This document shows, one piece after another, positions 47,369 through 53,306 of a stretch of DNA of 64,000 nt (position 1 is the stretch's first letter; every line of letters begins with the position of its first letter). The translations under genes were made by a program, and so were the position numbers. The DNA is taken from NCBI RefSeq assembly GCF_003023845.1, contig NZ_PYFT01000001.1, positions 5,146,001-5,210,000 on the forward strand. The letters run 5' to 3'. The DNA is from Adhaeribacter arboris (GTDB lineage: Bacteria; Bacteroidota; Bacteroidia; Cytophagales; Hymenobacteraceae). The notes under the pieces are model-generated. The model saw only the letters and a list, made by a program, of their open reading frames with translations, did not search any database and was not told the origin of the DNA.

Positions 47369-48604
47369 ATGGCCAAAAAATTACATGATACCGCCAAAGT
47401 GCAGGAAACCGCCGTTTTGGTTGCCGTTCCTACTAAAACACAACCCGACGAAAAAACCGAAGAATACTTGCACGAGTTGGCCTTCCTGACGGAAACAGTT
47501 GGGGTAGAAGCCATCAAGCGTTTCGTTCAGAAACTCGAAAAGCCCGACATTCGCACGTACGTGGGTAAAGGCAAGCTCGAAGAAATTAAGGCTTTTGTCG
47601 AGGAATTTCAAATTGACATGGTGATTTTCGACGACGACCTGACTCCTTCGCAGGTGCGCAACCTGGAAAGTGAGCTGAAGGTAAAAATTGTAGACCGCAG
47701 TTTATTAATTCTGGATATTTTCGTGCAACGCGCCAAAACGGCTCAGGCCCGTACGCAGGTAGAAATGGCGCAGTATCAATACTTTCTGCCGCGTTTAACT
47801 AACCTCTGGACGCACTTATCGCGGCAGAAAGGGGGCGTGGGCATGCGGGGCCCCGGGGAAACGGAAATTGAAACGGACCGGCGGATTGTGCGGGATAAAA
47901 TTGCCTTACTCCGCGACAAGCTCGAAAAACTCGACAAGCAAAATTTTCAGCAGCGAAAAGCCCGGGCCGAAATGGTACGCGTGGCGCTGGTAGGTTACAC
48001 CAACGTGGGTAAATCCACGCTCATGAACTTGCTTTCTAAATCAGATGTTTTTGCCGAAAATAAACTGTTTGCGACCGTAGATGCTACCGTGCGCAAAGTA
48101 GTGATTAAGCAGATTCCGTTTTTGTTATCCGATACAGTAGGATTTATCCGCAAATTACCTACCCGCCTCATCGAAAGTTTTAAATCTACCCTGGACGAAA
48201 TCCGGGAAGCCGATTTGCTGGTGCACGTAGTAGATATTTCGCACCCTTCGTTTGAGGAGCACATTGAGGTAGTAAATAAAACTTTAAAAGAAATTAACTC
48301 CGCGGAGAAGCCGGTATTGCTGGTGTTTAACAAAATAGACCAGTACCGTACCCAGGAAGTAGAAGAACTAAACGATATGGGCGAAGGTGCCGAACGCCCC
48401 ACCATTGATGAACTGCGGCAAACGTACATGGCCAAAATGCACAATCCGGCTATCTTCATTTCGGCCACCGACCGAACTAATATGGCTACCCTCCGCGACG
48501 AGTTGTTCGCGCGGGTAGCCGCCATTCATTACGAACGTTACCCCAATGTATCACCTCCCTCCGAAGAAGAACTACACACCCCAGATAGGCATGAAAGGCA
48601 GTGA
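47369..48604 (+). CDS. hflX: Ribosome-associated GTPase HflX
   Basis: 411 aa. HflX splits stalled 70S ribosomes, for example after heat. The N-terminal domain has 'ELAFLTETVGVEAIKRFVQK' and 'TYVGKGKLEEIKAFV' with 'VIFDDDLTPSQVRNLE'. The G-domain linker is 'GVGMRGPGETEIETDRR' near residue 160, and the GTPase has G1 'VALVGYTNVGKSTLMNLL' near 206-220, 'FATVDATVRKV', G3 'LSDTVGFIRKLP' and G4 'FNKID'. A charged tail follows, ending 'TPDRHERQ'. It is followed by a strong terminator that separates it from the cassette array. Confidence 0.95.
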   Translation: MAKKLHDTAKVQETAVLVAVPTKTQPDEKTEEYLHELAFLTETVGVEAIKRFVQKLEKPDIRTYVGKGKLEEIKAFVEEFQIDMVIFDDDLTPSQVRNLESELKVKIVDRSLLILDIFVQRAKTAQARTQVEMAQYQYFLPRLTNLWTHLSRQKGGVGMRGPGETEIETDRRIVRDKIALLRDKLEKLDKQNFQQRKARAEMVRVALVGYTNVGKSTLMNLLSKSDVFAENKLFATVDATVRKVVIKQIPFLLSDTVGFIRKLPTRLIESFKSTLDEIREADLLVHVVDISHPSFEEHIEVVNKTLKEINSAEKPVLLVFNKIDQYRTQEVEELNDMGEGAERPTIDELRQTYMAKMHNPAIFISATDRTNMATLRDELFARVAAIHYERYPNVSPPSEEELHTPDRHERQ

Positions 48605-48680
48605 TTTAAATTTTTTCGAGGTTTTTATTAGAAATTTTTTCAGGCATCCGGCTAACGGCAATTAAGATTTGTACATAGTA

Positions 48681-48719
48681 CCGATAACCGGAACGAGTTC
48701 CGGTTATCGGTTATTTTTT
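48681..48719 (+). terminator. hflX terminator, 14-bp perfect stem
   Basis: CCGATAACCGGAAC (48681-48694) pairs completely with GTTCCGGTTATCGG (48697-48710), followed by TTATTTTTT. This ends hflX transcription just before the cassette array, so the cassettes need their own promoter. No other intrinsic terminator of this strength lies nearby. Confidence 0.88.
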
Positions 48720-48723
48720 AGGA

Positions 48724-48750
48724 GGATATATGGAATAACTCCGTATATCC
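48724..48750. other. Hairpin at the left edge of the cassette array
   Basis: GGATATATGGA pairs with TCCGTATATCC (one T-G pair) around ATAAC, ending 4 bases before the first crossover core GTTGTGG (48755-48761). It stands where an attI site or the remnant of an earlier attC would be. It lacks a recognisable R'' core and its spacing differs from the attC sites, so the identity is open. Confidence 0.4.
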
Positions 48751-48770
48751 ACGAGTTGTGGTACATTAAA

Positions 48771-49202
48771 ATGACAGAAGAACAAAAATATTTACCTTCC
48801 GAAATCATAAATAAGTCAACTTTAAACAGTCACGAATATGGCTGGAAAAGAAAAGATTTTAAAGAAGTTGTAGACTACGCTGTAAAAGCTGGACTTGGAG
48901 TAGTAGGTGGACAAGTTCAGTTTATGTTTCCTGATGGAACGTGTGAACTGTACTGGCACAAGTATGATACGAAAGAAAAACTAGCAGGTGAAAGTTGGTT
49001 AAGTTACTGTGAAAGAACTAAACAGGAATGTCTTGAGCAGTTTGAAGCTCTACCTAATAACCTAAGGTTAATAGAAGAAGGAATAGAAAAATTTAGGTTC
49101 TTAAGAGAGAAATCTGAACAAGGAGTAGAACTTGAAAACTACTTGATATTCATTCTTTACTTTGATAACTCTGAAACAGAGATAGCTAAAAAGGAAAAAT
49201 AA
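48771..49202 (+). CDS. Cassette 1 protein, unknown
   Basis: 143 aa from ATG 48771, 15 bases after the crossover core; longer in-frame starts would lie in the hflX terminator. It is soluble and acidic, with an aromatic N-terminal part ('NSHEYGWKRKDFKEVVDYAVKA'), a beta strand pair 'VGGQVQFMFPDGTCELYWHKYD' and a long helical C-terminus. The pattern recalls Imm- or SMI1-type small accessory proteins, but no family is recognised. It ends 6 bases before its attC core. Being the sole gene in its cassette, it should be self-sufficient. Confidence 0.65.
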   Translation: MTEEQKYLPSEIINKSTLNSHEYGWKRKDFKEVVDYAVKAGLGVVGGQVQFMFPDGTCELYWHKYDTKEKLAGESWLSYCERTKQECLEQFEALPNNLRLIEEGIEKFRFLREKSEQGVELENYLIFILYFDNSETEIAKKEK

Positions 49203-49207
49203 CGATA

Positions 49208-49261
49208 CCACAACAACACCTTTACGGTAGCTACGCCACCGCAAAGCCCAGAACGTTAGCG
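49208..49261 (+). other. attC-like site 1
   Basis: R'' CCACAAC (49208-49214), spacer AACAC, L'' CTTTACGG, centre, L' CCGCAAAG, spacer CCCAGAAC, R' GTTAGCG (49255-49261). L'' and L' pair with one offset base, as attC sites do. R'' with its 5' neighbours (TACCACAAC) pairs with the core of cassette 1 (GTTGTGGTA). The inner part is nearly the same as site 5. Confidence 0.8.
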
Positions 49262-49281
49262 GTTATTTAAATTTAGATAGA

Positions 49282-49689
49282 ATGAAGATTGTTTTAACCT
49301 TATTACTCCTATTATCCATTAGTAGTCTGCATGGTCAGGGATTAGATAGTTGTGGGGTTGACAATAAGCCACGTCTAAATCGCTATGAATCTGAGTTATT
49401 GAATGAGTATCTAAAGAATCATAAAGGAAACTTCGATTTCACAAATAAGAATGTAGTATTTGTGACTGGTAGCAGCGGTTCCATTATTGCAACCAAGAAA
49501 TCCTACTTTACCAATATCAAGGACTGGAATAAGAAAAACTCAAGAATTGCTACATCACTAATTGTTTTATCTGAAGAGGAAAAAGTAGAGTCTGGAGGTT
49601 ATGACGCTATGGTCACTTATTGGGTAAAGGTATTAGGTAGTAAAAGGAAAGTTATAAAGAAAATAAAACAAGCCGCTAACCACACCTAA
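49282..49689 (+). CDS. Cassette 2 secreted protein, unknown
   Basis: 135 aa with a clear signal peptide ('MKIVLTLLLLLSISSLHGQ'). The mature part has one Cys, a 'FTNKNVVFVTGSSGSIIATKK' strand-turn and a basic C-terminus. No family is recognised. The stop codon lies inside attC 2, as is common in cassettes. The start is 26 bases after the crossover core. Confidence 0.65.
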   Translation: MKIVLTLLLLLSISSLHGQGLDSCGVDNKPRLNRYESELLNEYLKNHKGNFDFTNKNVVFVTGSSGSIIATKKSYFTNIKDWNKKNSRIATSLIVLSEEEKVESGGYDAMVTYWVKVLGSKRKVIKKIKQAANHT

Positions 49690-49726
49690 AGCACACTATG
49701 GCGTGCCTTAGCCAAGTACGTTAGGC
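49674..49726 (+). other. attC-like site 2
   Basis: R'' CGCTAAC (49674-49680), spacer CACAC, L'' CTAAAGCAC, centre, L' GTGCCTTAG, spacer CCAAGTAC, R' GTTAGGC (49720-49726), a perfect GTTRRRY core. L'' pairs with L' except one base, the expected extrahelical position. R'' is complementary to the core of cassette 2 (GTTAGCG) and not to its own R'. Confidence 0.85.
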
Positions 49727-50311
49727 GTAATAGGAAAAATTTGGGCTGGGAAGGAGTGGCTAAACAACTGAAATATAGCCATAAAAGCAAAAAATTAGGA
49801 GTTTCAACCCGTCTTTGACAGCTAGGTCAAAGAAGAAAAAACAGGAAAAAATACCTTCCTTAAAACCGTTTTTAAAGACCGGATTAAAACCGTTTTTAAG
49901 GAAGGTATTTTACCTGTTTTTGGTACTTGTTAGAATAACAATACCTGGTTGAAACGAATAAAAAATGGCTTTTATTGCCTGCTAAAAAAAAGTTTAGCCC
50001 CGTTTTTACCTCTTTTGGCCAGCCCTTTATGGGTGTTTTATAAAAATAAAGGAGCGGGTGACTTCTCTTAGCCTCGCCTAAATGAAATCATCCCGCCTTT
50101 AGTTTTATTTATTCATTTTTAGGAAAACGTTTGTTTCTCTTTAAAAAGCAGAGAAACCTAAAGAAGGGGAAAGCGGTAAATTTTTCCTACTATAAAGGGT
50201 AGTTCTTAAAAAATCAGCTACTTTACCTAAAAAAAGAACTACCCCGCCTAACTACACCTAAAAGACACCAAACCCCAGCCAATTGGACAAGGCGTCTTTT
50301 AGCCTTGTTCG
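49721..50311 (+). other. Cassette 3: noncoding, built of hairpins
   Basis: 591 bases with no coding frame of useful length. Instead there are at least four inverted repeats: GTTTCAACC (49801-49809) with GGTTGAAAC (49947-49955), enclosing a long stem of AATACCTTCCTTAAAA (49849-49865) with its complement (49891-49911); GCGGGTGA with TCATCCCGC near 50054-50098; GTTTCTCT with AGAGAAAC near 50130-50158; and GGGTAGTTCTT with AAGAACTACCC near 50199-50244. The whole piece lies between two matched cassette cores. A regulatory RNA, a MITE inside a cassette or a promoter cassette are the options. Confidence 0.7.
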
Positions 50312-50317
50312 TTGTGC
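50246..50317 (+). other. attC-like site 3
   Basis: R'' GCCTAAC (50246-50252), spacer TACAC, L'' CTAAAAGAC, centre, L' GTCTTTTAG (perfect 9-bp pairing), spacer CCTTGTTC, R' GTTGTGC (50311-50317). The same 5- and 8-base spacers occur as in sites 1, 2 and 5. R'' is complementary to the core of cassette 3 (GTTAGGCG). Confidence 0.85.
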
Positions 50318-50340
50318 GTCACTTTTCAAGCCTTCAATTA

Positions 50341-50937
50341 ATGCCAGTTACCCGACAAGACCTTATTCAGATTTGTGACCAGTTTCTAAACGACGAAATC
50401 AGTAAAGAACAGATTGAAAATTATGCTTGGACGATAATAACAAGTGAAGGCGAGCTAACAGATGAAATAATTGATGAAACCTTGATTGACTGGGACAATG
50501 AGAATATGAATTTTCCTATAAATAAAGCAAATATGCAGCTTTGGAAAAAGCGACTGACTACGGGCATTGACGAACTGCCCCAGCATAACATTTGGAATGT
50601 ACATATTGACGAGCAGAAGGAGATTTGCAAGAGATATAATTCTAAGTGGACACCTATCAACAACAAACTACTTATAGGCGTTTCAGACAATTTAACTGCG
50701 GAGCCAATTCACGGTTTAAGACATCCGAGTGATAAGGGAACAACTGGTTGGTTCATATGGACAGGCGACTACTCGGAAGCAGACGACTTTTTCAAGCCAA
50801 TGTGTGCAGAACATTTGCTGCAAATCAGACCACAAATCATCAAGTATTTAGGGCTTGACATTGGCTTTCGGTTTCTCGCAGACAGCAACAGCTTCGAAGA
50901 CATTTGGTATGACGAAACTTTAAAGCAAGTTGACTAA
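50341..50937 (+). CDS. Cassette 4: Imm33/DUF2185-like immunity protein
   Basis: 198 aa from ATG 50341 ('MPVTRQDLIQICDQFLND'), 29 bases after the core; an upstream non-ATG start would cover the core. The C-terminal 80 residues match the Imm33-like (DUF2185-type) immunity family: 'LRHPSDKGTTGWFIWTGDYSEADDFFKPMCAEHL' and 'IIKYLGLDIGFRFLADSNSFEDIWYDETL'. The N-terminal half is helical and may be a separate recognition part. Such proteins protect from a polymorphic toxin; no matching toxin is nearby, so it could be an orphan immunity gene. Confidence 0.75.
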   Translation: MPVTRQDLIQICDQFLNDEISKEQIENYAWTIITSEGELTDEIIDETLIDWDNENMNFPINKANMQLWKKRLTTGIDELPQHNIWNVHIDEQKEICKRYNSKWTPINNKLLIGVSDNLTAEPIHGLRHPSDKGTTGWFIWTGDYSEADDFFKPMCAEHLLQIRPQIIKYLGLDIGFRFLADSNSFEDIWYDETLKQVD

Positions 50938-50944
50938 AGCGAAC

Positions 50945-51142
50945 ACACAACAGGCGGTTTTGCGTCAGTGGGGGGCGACGAATAAGCCTCGGCTTTTGTT
51001 CATCCTTCGACAGCAGTTCCAGCGTGATTGAACTCGCATGGGCTATTGAAAAAGTTCTGTACTTTAGTTTTCCAAGCGGCTTTAGTCCGGGGCTGACGTT
51101 TTCCAAATGTCCCGCCGAACGCAAAGCCGGTAGACGTTAGGT
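50945..51142 (+). other. attC-like site 4, unusually long
   Basis: R'' ACACAAC (50945-50951), L''-like TTTTGCGT, about 145 bases of imperfect palindrome, L'-like ACGCAAAG, then R' GTTAGGT (51136-51142). CACAAC pairs with the GTTGTG core of cassette 4. At 198 bp it is long for attC but follows the same plan. A fusion with a decayed neighbour is possible. Confidence 0.65.
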
Positions 51143-51154
51143 GTTATTAAAATA

Positions 51155-51610
51155 ATGAATATACAAGCAGTTAAACATGTAAGATTATTACTTGTCTTGA
51201 TTTTTGGAGTGGATTTTATATTTAGAATCTTCCATCTTTCTCCTAGTCTCATCACGTTCCTATTGATTCCTCTCATTTATACAATAATCTACTTAAATAA
51301 GAGTGTAATCTATTTCAGCATGCTGCAATATATAGATGGTATCCTGATGATACTTTGTATCTGCTTAGTTTTAATTATCCCATTAAAGATATACTTTACT
51401 TACTTTAATATTTACCTTTCCATTGTATTGATAAGCCTTTGCATTTATTTTTATAAAGCTTTTTCTTTAAAATTTGAGTCTGATAAGTGGAAGACAACCT
51501 TAGTATTGCTAATCACCTTTGATTTAATTTTAATTATAATTCCTAACAATTCTATATTGGCATACTTAAACTTAAAATACAACAGATGGAGCCCAAATTT
51601 ACAAAAGTAG
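51155..51610 (+). CDS. Cassette 5: small membrane protein
   Basis: 151 aa, almost entirely hydrophobic, with about four to five helices ('LLLVLIFGVDFIFRIF', 'LITFLLIPLIYTIIYL', 'YIDGILMILCICLVLIIPLKIYF', 'IYLSIVLISLCIYFY', 'LVLLITFDLILIIIP'). No motif. The start is 18 bases after the crossover core. It runs straight into a 5'-less DUF922 remnant, so its own 3' end may be altered. Confidence 0.6.
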   Translation: MNIQAVKHVRLLLVLIFGVDFIFRIFHLSPSLITFLLIPLIYTIIYLNKSVIYFSMLQYIDGILMILCICLVLIIPLKIYFTYFNIYLSIVLISLCIYFYKAFSLKFESDKWKTTLVLLITFDLILIIIPNNSILAYLNLKYNRWSPNLQK

Positions 51611-52042
51611 GATTTTAAGGGTTCCCCAAAAGACAATCAGGTATTTTCGGCCATTATTGATACTGAAATTCTATATAAAGTAAACAAAGCTTATAACTAT
51701 CCTGCAGGGGCCGTAATCTCCATTATGGATCCTTATAATTCATATGTATTGGAGCAACCTCAAAATATAGGTCCTACCTTAAGGAATTTGGCTGAAAAAT
51801 ATTTATTAAAGCACGAACAAACTCACTTTGACATCACTGAATTTTTTGCTAAAAAGATTAATGAAAAACTAGCTTCTAAATGGTTTTTAAATGAGCAGGA
51901 AGCATCCTATATAATAGAACAAGCTACAAAAGAAAATAACAAAACGCATTTACTATATGATTCTTTAACGAACCATGGCAGGGATACTGTTCAACAATCA
52001 AAATGGTCACGGGAATACAGAGAAAAATTAAAAATAAATTAA
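51611..52042 (+). pseudogene. DUF922-like zinc protease, 5' end missing
   Basis: From directly after the TAG of the membrane gene the frame is open and reads 'DFKGSPKDNQVFSAII', the DUF922 start without its usual Trp and leader, then 'PTLRNLAEKYLLKHEQTHFDITEFFAKKINE', the HExxHFDIxE zinc site of this family. An ATG at 51725 would give 105 aa without the front. The signal peptide and start codon are absent. A deletion between two former cassettes that joined the membrane gene to this tail fits best. It ends 4 bases before attC 5. Confidence 0.75.
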
Positions 52043-52046
52043 CACC

Positions 52047-52100
52047 ACCTAACCACACCTATACGGCAGCTTCGCCACCGCAAAGCTTAATCCGTTAGCG
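52047..52100 (+). other. attC-like site 5
   Basis: R'' ACCTAAC (52047-52053, fits RYYYAAC), spacer CACAC, L'' CTATACGG, centre, L' CCGCAAAG, spacer CTTAATCC, R' GTTAGCG (52094-52100). CACCTAAC pairs with the core of cassette 5 (GTTAGGTG). The inner part resembles site 1 closely, showing common descent. Confidence 0.85.
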
Positions 52101-52123
52101 GTCAGCTTAGGACGACACCCACC

Positions 52124-52180
52124 ATGACAATGAAAACAACAGTTGAAGACAAACTTGACAGAATCGCCGACATATAGAAT
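52124..52180 (+). pseudogene. Cassette 6 gene start, cut by an insertion sequence
   Basis: ATG at 52124, 29 bases after the core GTTAGCG, begins 'MTMKTTVEDKLDRIAD' and is cut after about 17 codons at the IS end near 52181. The rest of this cassette, and the R'' CGCTAAC expected for its attC, are not found on the far side of the IS, so a deletion went with the insertion. Function unknown. Confidence 0.65.
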
Positions 52181-52244
52181 TGTAAGCTTGCCCAAAAATA
52201 GAACTGTTTAGAAAGAGAAAACCTCTTAACTTAGAACAGTGTTT

Positions 52245-52547
52245 ATGAAAAGGAAAACCTTCCCAACAAATAGCCCAAATCTTCAAAGAATTTGAGGAAG
52301 GCAAAAGTGCGGCGGAAATTAGCCGGGAACACATGGTGTGAGCCAAGGGGCTTTTTACAAATGGCGGCCACGTTACAACGGCATAGATGCCACCGAACTC
52401 ACCCGGCTCAAAGAACAGGAAGAAGAGAACCGCCGGCTGAAAGCCACGTCTGCGGGTCTGAAAAAAAGCTTTAAAGCCCTGCCAAAAGCGACAGCTAGTG
52501 GATGAGGTGTACCAACAACCTCAAGCCAGCATTAACAGAGGTGCCGG
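52245..52547 (+). pseudogene. IS3-family orfA (HTH transposase part), frameshifted
   Basis: Starts 'MKRKTF' at 52245, then continues in other frames as 'QIAQIFKEFEEGKSAAEISREH', 'GVSQGAFYKWRPRYNGIDATELTRLKEQEEENRRLKA' and '[19 protein letters not shown]'. These pieces are the usual OrfA HTH, leucine-zipper and OrfB-leader parts in order. At least three frame changes separate them, more than one programmed shift would explain, so the gene is dead. Confidence 0.75.
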
Positions 52548-53306
52548 GTGTTAAACTTAAGTAAGTCGGTGTATTATTATCAAGCACAGAAAGAGGATCA
52601 GGTGGTGGAAGAGGCTCTACGGCAGAAAGCCGAGCAACATCCTCGAGAAGGCTTCTGGAAAGCTTTTAGGCGGTTGCGCCAAGAAGGACAGCCGTGGAAT
52701 CATAAACGGGTACATCGGCTCTACACCGCCCTGGGTTTAAACCTGCGGCGCAAAGCCAAAAAGCGATTACCGGCGCGTATTCAACAGCCTTTACAGGTGC
52801 CGAAAGAGATAAACCATACTTGGTCGATTGACTTCATGAGTGATGCCCTAATGAACGGGAGAAAGTTCCGTTCTTTTCATGTGCTGGATGATTATAACCG
52901 GGAAGCGCTGCATATCGAGGTAGATTTTTCCCTAAAGAGCAACCGGGTAGTTTGGGTGCTCAATCATTTAATCCAGCGCCGGGAAAAACCAAAACGCATC
53001 CGGAGGGATAATAGACCCGAGTTTATCGCCAGTTTAATGCCGGAATGGAGCCAGATACAGGGCATTGAATTTGCGTATATCCAACCCGGCAAGCCGACCC
53101 AAAATGCTTTTGTAGAACGGTTTAATGGTACTTTCCGCCGGCATGTACTGGATGCTTACTTGTTGGACAACCTCCAGGAAGTCCGGGAAATTACTTCTAC
53201 TTGGTTAGAGGATTACAACCATAAACGACCCCATGATGCTGTAGCTGGAATGGCACCCAGTGAGTACGCCAGAAAAAAACAAGTGGAATATGTATTAACC
53301 GCTTAA
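52548..53306 (+). CDS. IS3-family orfB transposase (DDE integrase core)
   Basis: 252 aa from a GTG. The retroviral-type integrase core is complete: HTH_21-like start ('[22 protein letters not shown]'), first Asp in '[12 protein letters not shown]', second in '[13 protein letters not shown]' (usually RxDNGPEF, here Arg for Gly) and Glu in '[19 protein letters not shown]'. The front normally made by frameshifting from orfA is lost, so activity is doubtful. Confidence 0.85.

Follow-up and report, generated by a model that had tools for sequence, protein, structure and literature searches.

Integrons, clusters of attC sites lacking integrases (CALIN) and the rAID arrays of gut Bacteroidales are the closest described systems to the gene cassettes treated here, which lie in the genome of the soil bacterium Adhaeribacter arboris (7.25 Mb, two contigs) within a stretch of 64,000 nucleotides, C1:5146001-5210000, called the window throughout and numbered from its first letter. 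Integron cassettes are recognised by attC sites with the order R''-L''-L'-R', recombination at G^TT and complementarity to the core of their own cassette, by an attI site that stands beside the integrase and is joined to the first cassette, and by the integrase IntI. To our knowledge, no enzyme other than IntI has been found to act on folded attC cassettes. The arrays called rAID, for recombinase-associated acquired interbacterial defence, and reportedly first described by Ross et al. in 2019, are characterised by a tyrosine recombinase homologous to that of B. fragilis NCTC 9343 and, after it, co-oriented short genes for orphan immunity proteins. One report adds conserved intergenic motifs and some immunity-like genes to this picture and describes the mechanism of gene acquisition as not yet clear (PMC12247911). 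According to the IntegronFinder 2.0 report, only In0 elements were known in Bacteroidetes before, to which one complete integron, in Salinibacter ruber, was added (PMC9024848).

The window holds five cassettes spanning 48755-52093, between hflX and an insertion sequence (Table 1), and they probably form one platform of an integron-like, IntI-independent system in which platforms are dispersed over the chromosome and an integrase acts on them in trans. The first-pass annotation had described five cassettes in which the R'' of each terminal site is complementary to the core at its own start. This was borne out by a model-free chain test that follows a GTT core to a later reverse-complement R'' (at least 7/8), pairing L''/L' arms and the next GTT, and that replaced an initial motif scan with loose rules and many chance matches. 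At thresholds of 7 of 8 for R'' and 7 of 9 for L''/L', a chain of four cassettes was found against a maximum of two in 300 shuffles of the same 3.8 kb, and the maximum was likewise two when 42 strands of 10 kb, taken from this genome away from known arrays, served as control; with L''/L' lowered to 6 of 9 the chain comprises all five cassettes, with a shuffle maximum of four (3/300 shuffles). The fourth core pairing, first given as 6 bp, measures 7 of 8, and spacers of 5 and 8 nt were correctly reported for the four short sites.

The covariance scan that had been proposed was carried out with our own models, which together with the chain test took the place of the IntegronFinder model. Model R1, trained on 11 sites of the A. 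arboris genome, four of them from the window, matched four of the five sites, partly by construction (59.7-70.8 bits), and the long fourth site was matched by neither R1 nor R2, the latter built from 81 R1 hits (71 distinct). Over the 71 distinct sites, in an alignment fitted to the model, standard pairs make up 90% of the L''/L' helix, a share that drops to 41% or lower once the arms are slid, and both sides of a pair have changed in 121 cells against 42.9 in shuffles. The bottom strand is the more stable in 69 of these sites (shuffled mean 55.6, maximum 59, in 20 rounds) and in 32/37 sites from other loci of the phylum. Bottom-strand folding, also suggested in the first pass, was more stable than the top strand at window sites 1, 2, 3 and 5; the fold of the fourth was no better than shuffles (z 0.66), and that of the fifth is not the canonical attC fold despite its stability. 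A crude test for an extrahelical base in L'', made on 65 of the 71 sites (six had no clear AAC or GTT and were dropped), gave no consistent signal: ungapped pairing was best or tied in 52/65, a bulge in L'' was better in 7/65 and one in L' in 6/65. Rfam at gathering thresholds returned two tRNAs only and no attC family match. In the order of their arms, their G^TT cores and the complement to their own core, the sites are those of integron cassettes.

Table 1. Features of the array and its surroundings in the window
Feature	Position	Strand	Remarks
hflX	47369..48604	+	chromosomal neighbour 5' of the platform; landmark for the species comparison; gene name presumed
attI-like site	48670..48754	+	GTACATAGT..GATAACCGGAAC half and CCGTATATC half with an inverted repeat inserted between them; end directly before first GTT core
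cassette 1	48755..49254	+	own core/R'' 8/8
cassette 1 open reading frame (ORF)	48771-49202		143 aa; weak Imm40 match, E 0.054, under Pfam cut-off
attC 1	49206..49261	+	R1 70.8 bits; L''/L' 8/9; bottom strand -10.9 vs top -5.7 kcal/mol
cassette 2	49255..49719	+	own core/R'' 8/8
cassette 2 ORF	49282-49689		135 aa; no Pfam family matched
attC 2	49672..49726	+	R1 64.4 bits; L''/L' 8/9; bottom -11.0 vs top -5.6 kcal/mol
cassette 3	49720..50310	+	own core/R'' 8/8; longest ORF in array orientation 45 aa
attC 3	50244..50317	+	R1 59.7 bits; L''/L' 9/9; bottom -13.0 vs top -8.6 kcal/mol
cassette 4	50311..51135	+	own core/R'' 7/8
cassette 4 ORF	50341-50937		Imm33-like protein; Pfam PF24719 E 1.1e-39
attC 4	50943..51142	+	long form, about 200 nt; model-free pairing 7/8 (R''), 8/9 (L''/L')
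cassette 5	51136..52093	+	own core/R'' 8/8; reading frame 51155-52042
attC 5	52045..52100	+	R1 68.6 bits; L''/L' only 6/9; bottom -9.3 vs top -5.7 kcal/mol
sixth cassette, start only	52094..~52200	+	GTT core at 52094; end approximate
transposase, rve + HTH_21 domains	52548..53306	+	Pfam rve_3 E 9.8e-25, rve E 2.1e-12; presumably IS3-like, by family name

The cassettes carry marks of movement. Among 51 cassettes with an assignable start (98 of 108 listed sites were used), R'' matches its own start with a mean of 7.04/9 and at least 7 in 37/51, compared with 5.59 and 12/51 for the next core, while 2000 re-deals of the own cores averaged 5.45 and never exceeded 6.02; some low own-core values stem from attC sites missed in between. 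Cassette 1 has a 100% identical copy at C1:6685697-6686199, reaching from GTT to the GTT of the next core with different flanks, a 99.4% copy at C1:125227-125752 that includes 17 letters of the attI-like site, and an 84% copy in the relative G003. Four other copies of cassette 3 occur in the genome (C1:126263, 2836673, 6677815 and 6686672) beside different neighbours, in pieces 98.8-100% identical, and cassette 5 has a 96.6% copy among other neighbours in the relative G006. Since R'' matches the own start and the copies break at GTT, the sequence directly supports circularisation of the cassettes and their reinsertion at G^TT, as the first pass had proposed for attC-type cassettes, and with copies up to 100% identical the moves are recent. 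The window cassettes are mobile cassettes.

Cassette 3 contains several inverted repeats and stands twice as the first cassette behind an attI-like site; a promoter or a structured RNA may be what it carries. Two of its copies (L257, C1:6686672, and L261, C1:126263) both begin with GTTAAGGCG in place of GTTAGGCG; the additional A at the joint may have been left by inexact strand exchange.

Similar arrays are spread over the genome. The wider search for attC sites called for in the first pass, in which 150 of 2737 first-look candidates were scored with R1, gave 50 sites at E ≤ 1 and 41 at E ≤ 0.01, at about twenty chromosomal places; the second contig had no R1 match. R1 hits at E ≤ 0.01 occur in 8/8 genomes of the genus (4 to 41 per genome), and R2 hits at E ≤ 1e-5 in 69/120 genomes and 4/6 genera of the family. 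A 591-nt stretch was seen, 84% alike, at two distant places of the genome (L026 9560-10150 and L028 8038-8628).

Arrays of this genome begin at an attI-like site. In six arrays including that of the window, the half CCGTATATC-(4 nt)-AGTT (at most one mismatch) adjoins the first core on its 5' side and is itself preceded by a GATAACCGGAAC-like half. With up to three mismatches, the pattern GATAACCGGAAC-NNN-TCCGTATATC occurs 15 times in this genome, 10 times each in G003 and G006, nine times in G004, once each in three other relatives and not at all in G005, while its reversed control has no occurrence in any genome of the genus; the window site, interrupted by an inverted repeat, is for that reason not counted in the 15. 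An attC match (E ≤ 0.02) follows within 3 kb 3' on the same strand at 14 of the 15 motif sites, the models having found none 3' of C1:720261. A hidden Markov model (HMM) was trained only on 19 recombinase-adjacent attI sites from other genera and run against 490 kb of the A. arboris genome, mostly stretches chosen for their arrays; for 9 of its 10 best hits, a same-strand attC match follows within 3 kb on the 3' side (the best by E-value being L127 2.8e-8, L023 1e-6, L131 1.4e-6 and L030 7e-5); the exception, L122, is again C1:720261.

The position after hflX, of which there is one orthologue per genome in 8/8 genomes of the genus, allows the species to be compared. A comparison of relatives had been proposed in the first pass, and the same content throughout, which would have refuted the first-pass reading, was not seen, an outcome in favour of that reading: A. 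arboris, G003 and G006 have the attI-like site, each with a first cassette of its own, and in five other species of the genus another gene follows hflX directly, with no site. The window's cassettes had been called a CALIN, which fits at least two attC sites lacking an integrase gene nearby: searches with the IntI model TIGR02249 and with the recombinase described below gave no match in the window. The array differs from a CALIN in starting at an attI-like site, which stands there with no integrase beside it, and in having a probable integrase of another family elsewhere in the genome.

An integron integrase elsewhere, present or past, had also been expected. A recombinase was indeed found about 1.5 Mb from the window, but this probable integrase is not an IntI. 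It is a tyrosine recombinase of 483 aa, and an array starts 146 nt after its gene. This array (C1:6678-6691 kb), the longest read in the genome with chains of 12 and 5 in two stretches, holds copies of window cassettes 1 and 3. An alignment of the recombinase with two homologues, used as the query, led to 21 named loci in Pontibacter, Rufibacter and Adhaeribacter, 14 of which contain R2 hits at E ≤ 0.5 (42 hits, all 42 on the recombinase strand and 3' of the gene); in six of the seven others no more than about 1.1 kb of sequence extends 3' of the gene, and in the seventh the chain test gave 3 cassettes. Chains of 4-11 were found in seven of the 21 loci (A. soli 8, P. virosus 10, P. indicus 11, P. 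aquaedesilientis 8, P. diazotrophicus 5, P. fetidus 4 and A. aerolatus 4) and chains of 3 in two more, with a maximum of 2 in three shuffles of each. The recombinase-array unit also occurs on plasmids, in Rufibacter tibetensis with a chain of 7 and in Pontibacter kalidii with one of 6. As raw counts, 20/24 family loci have a core and its matching R'' 121-190 nt past the recombinase stop, and 10 of the 13 loci examined among 20 from the phylum have such a core at 40-102 nt. In this first sample of 20 phylum loci, several of which end soon after the gene, eight have chains of at least 3, and three of these at least 5. By sequence only, an attI site of the type seen in the window stands after the recombinase gene in Pontibacter, Rufibacter and A. 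arboris, with the first cassette joined to it. A CTATATTAG-like stretch about 8 nt after the recombinase stop, before the attI-like site, was observed in many of the loci L148-L168 and is possibly the cassette promoter.

In an alignment of six array-linked recombinases with five IntI proteins of the phylum, the catalytic Arg, Lys, His-x-x-Arg, His and Tyr are intact and the IntI patch is absent from all six. Against TIGR02249, the 483-aa protein scores 116 and 91 bits in two pieces, where the cut-off is 265. In a quick tree, a branch with support 100 unites 12 IntI proteins with the IntI homologue of G003, and the array-linked recombinases lie outside it. Tandem repeats absent from the aligned IntI proteins occupy the N-terminus. 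The best structural match is XerA (5hxy), with the integron integrase of Vibrio cholerae (2a3v) a close second, the model being poor in that part. A second homologue in the genome (C1:6723295-6724326) is broken, 39% identical and has two stops. Among plasmid records with a relative of the recombinase, 50/88 are from Acinetobacter; the listed rows are about 36% identical and overlap an IS26 transposase.

The platform is best described as an attI-like site at whose GTT cassettes are inserted, the cassettes being mostly single short genes, some immunity-like, and each ending in an attC-like site able to fold into a hairpin. The enzyme would be the tyrosine recombinase of about 480 aa, with XerA/IntI-like catalysis and no IntI patch, whose two N-terminal repeats may read folded DNA; its gene is placed directly before its own attI site and array, and the remaining attI sites, among them that behind hflX, would be served in trans. 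The likely benefit would be an exchangeable reserve of accessory genes and orphan immunity genes.

As to cargo, the 104 cassette ORFs from this genome and the named relatives matched 42 Pfam families, of which the 25 shown have one member each and many are domains of unknown function (DUFs). Products with a Pfam match include the Imm33-like protein of the window and a SUFU-domain protein, the product of the first cassette at the hflX site of G003; this fits, and does not prove, a cassette stock of immunity and accessory genes. The cassette 5 frame is divided by an in-frame stop at 51608-51610, and its second part has a likeness to DUF922 under the Pfam cut-off. The sixth cassette is cut off by the insertion sequence (about 52200-53306).

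The arrays could instead be ordinary CALIN, the work of a true IntI now in decay, with the patch-less recombinase as a passenger. TIGR02249 at E ≤ 0.001 is weakly positive in 14/14 control genomes, so only hits over the cut-off were used, and the one such hit in this genome, at C1:1659408-1660301 (L009 14409-15302; 297 against 265 bits), would be the relic. It has the IntI patch, but its first catalytic Arg is replaced by Lys, the GKGxKDR stretch is missing and a TAG stands at the catalytic His. The homologue between the same flanks in G003 (G003:C2:4434734-4435630) shares the loss of Arg and GKGxKDR and has two further changes. One of these two orthologues remains an open frame of 346 aa. The shared losses reflect either old decay or a new role. 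That an IntI homologue exists in both genomes, that IntI is widespread in the phylum outside this class (106/395 genomes above the cut-off), and that two of the eight first-sample genomes with recombinase-array chains (G074 and G338, with chains of 3) have an IntI match elsewhere, all speak for an IntI origin. Yet the catalytic losses are old, as both Adhaeribacter copies share them, while cassette copies are 100% identical; IntI is matched in 2/8 genomes of the genus and attC in 8/8; and R1 found no attC in the 60 kb read around the homologue. Moreover, among 108 genomes listed with an IntI match at E ≤ 1e-55, the only ones of the same class are A. arboris itself and G095, and patch-less recombinases head chains of 7 in G174, 6 in G140, 5 in G116, 4 in G280 and 3 in G132, G167 and G397, none of them among the 108 (G132 and G167 are listed as having no IntI match, and the other five are taken to be among the 267 unlisted genomes). 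The homologue is dead; we infer that it plays no part now, and consider a decayed IntI an unlikely builder of the arrays.

It is very unlikely that another recombinase, or the housekeeping XerC/XerD, moves the cassettes and that the 483-aa gene is only a frequent neighbour, even if G003 and G004 keep platforms with only Xer-like matches and the attI motif is near-palindromic, as Xer-type sites are. Against this stand the fixed position of the recombinase gene before the first core in the family loci, the presence of every R2 hit on one side and strand of it, and the two of six family genera with no attC hit at E ≤ 1e-5, since a housekeeping Xer is expected to be general. An origin with no recombination, in a tandem or dispersed repeat family such as repetitive extragenic palindromic (REP) or miniature inverted-repeat transposable element (MITE) hairpins between genes, would account for repeated intergenic hairpins with similar letters across arrays. 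It can practically be dismissed, as R'' tracks the start of its own cassette while cores differ, copies end at GTT with new neighbours, and content at the same site differs between species.

Several observations weigh against an IntI-independent system with an integrase acting in trans. The attI site of the window is interrupted by the inverted repeat, and its HMM match (48671-48706) is weak (rank 10, E 0.6). The covariation alignment was fitted to the model; R2, being built from R1 hits, gives hits that are not independent of R1; and letter composition alone favours the bottom strand in about 56/71 sites. In a second sample of 20 weaker homologues (157-284 bits), one convincing chain was seen (L235, four cassettes about 7.5 kb off). 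A chain of 3 in L226 has T-rich cores and was counted as chance, and the wrong strand also yields a chain of 3 in L207 and, once longer attC sites are allowed, in L154. Because of these wrong-strand chains and the second sample, a chain of 3 is weak evidence and the recombinase family is not always linked to arrays. G003 and G004 combine attI motifs and attC hits with only Xer-like recombinase matches (E 1.4e-28 and 2.5e-30), nor was IntI matched in G004; in G001, G005 and G006 the recombinase has stops or is truncated or split. That the recombinase acts on attI and attC sites is something we infer from its position, and an active IntI could have existed in the lineage and been lost.

Compared with the known systems, the proposed IntI-independent system shares with integrons the G^TT cores, the R''/R' complement restored in the circle, the L''/L' stem with uneven spacers, the more stable bottom strand, the attI-like site at the array start and the short co-oriented genes. 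It differs in a recombinase outside the IntI branch with N-terminal repeats and no patch, in the co-orientation of the recombinase gene with its array, in about twenty dispersed platforms instead of one, and, on the crude test, in having no consistent extrahelical base. The system works like an integron and falls outside strict membership on the count of IntI. With XerA and XerC/XerD the recombinase shares the catalytic fold and residues, and it is set apart by the N-terminal tandem repeats, the array-bound position and the attC-like partners. The rAID arrays, compared by description, share the architecture of a tyrosine recombinase followed by co-oriented short genes; platforms away from the recombinase distinguish the present system, and attC-type cores and circles are not part of the rAID description in the portion of the report available (PMC12247911).

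A wider reading is held tentatively: Bacteroidota may possess an integron class of their own, in which a patch-less recombinase with HARP/XPB-like repeats reads folded attC with these instead of the IntI patch and serves in trans many attI platforms dispersed over one chromosome; the rAID immunity arrays of gut Bacteroidales would be the same machine. Such a class would have been overlooked because detection starts from IntI. In the literature searched, of partial coverage, no paper joined 'acquired interbacterial' with 'integron', and none joined integron, attC and Pontibacter, or HARP domain and tyrosine recombinase.

If true, a second type of enzyme would follow the same cassette logic, with cassette capture run by another branch of the tyrosine recombinases, and integron-like systems would span a wider range within a major phylum. 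The rAID arrays would gain a testable mechanism that explains how they acquire genes, and dispersed attI platforms in one chromosome would change the picture of how cassettes are stored and expressed.

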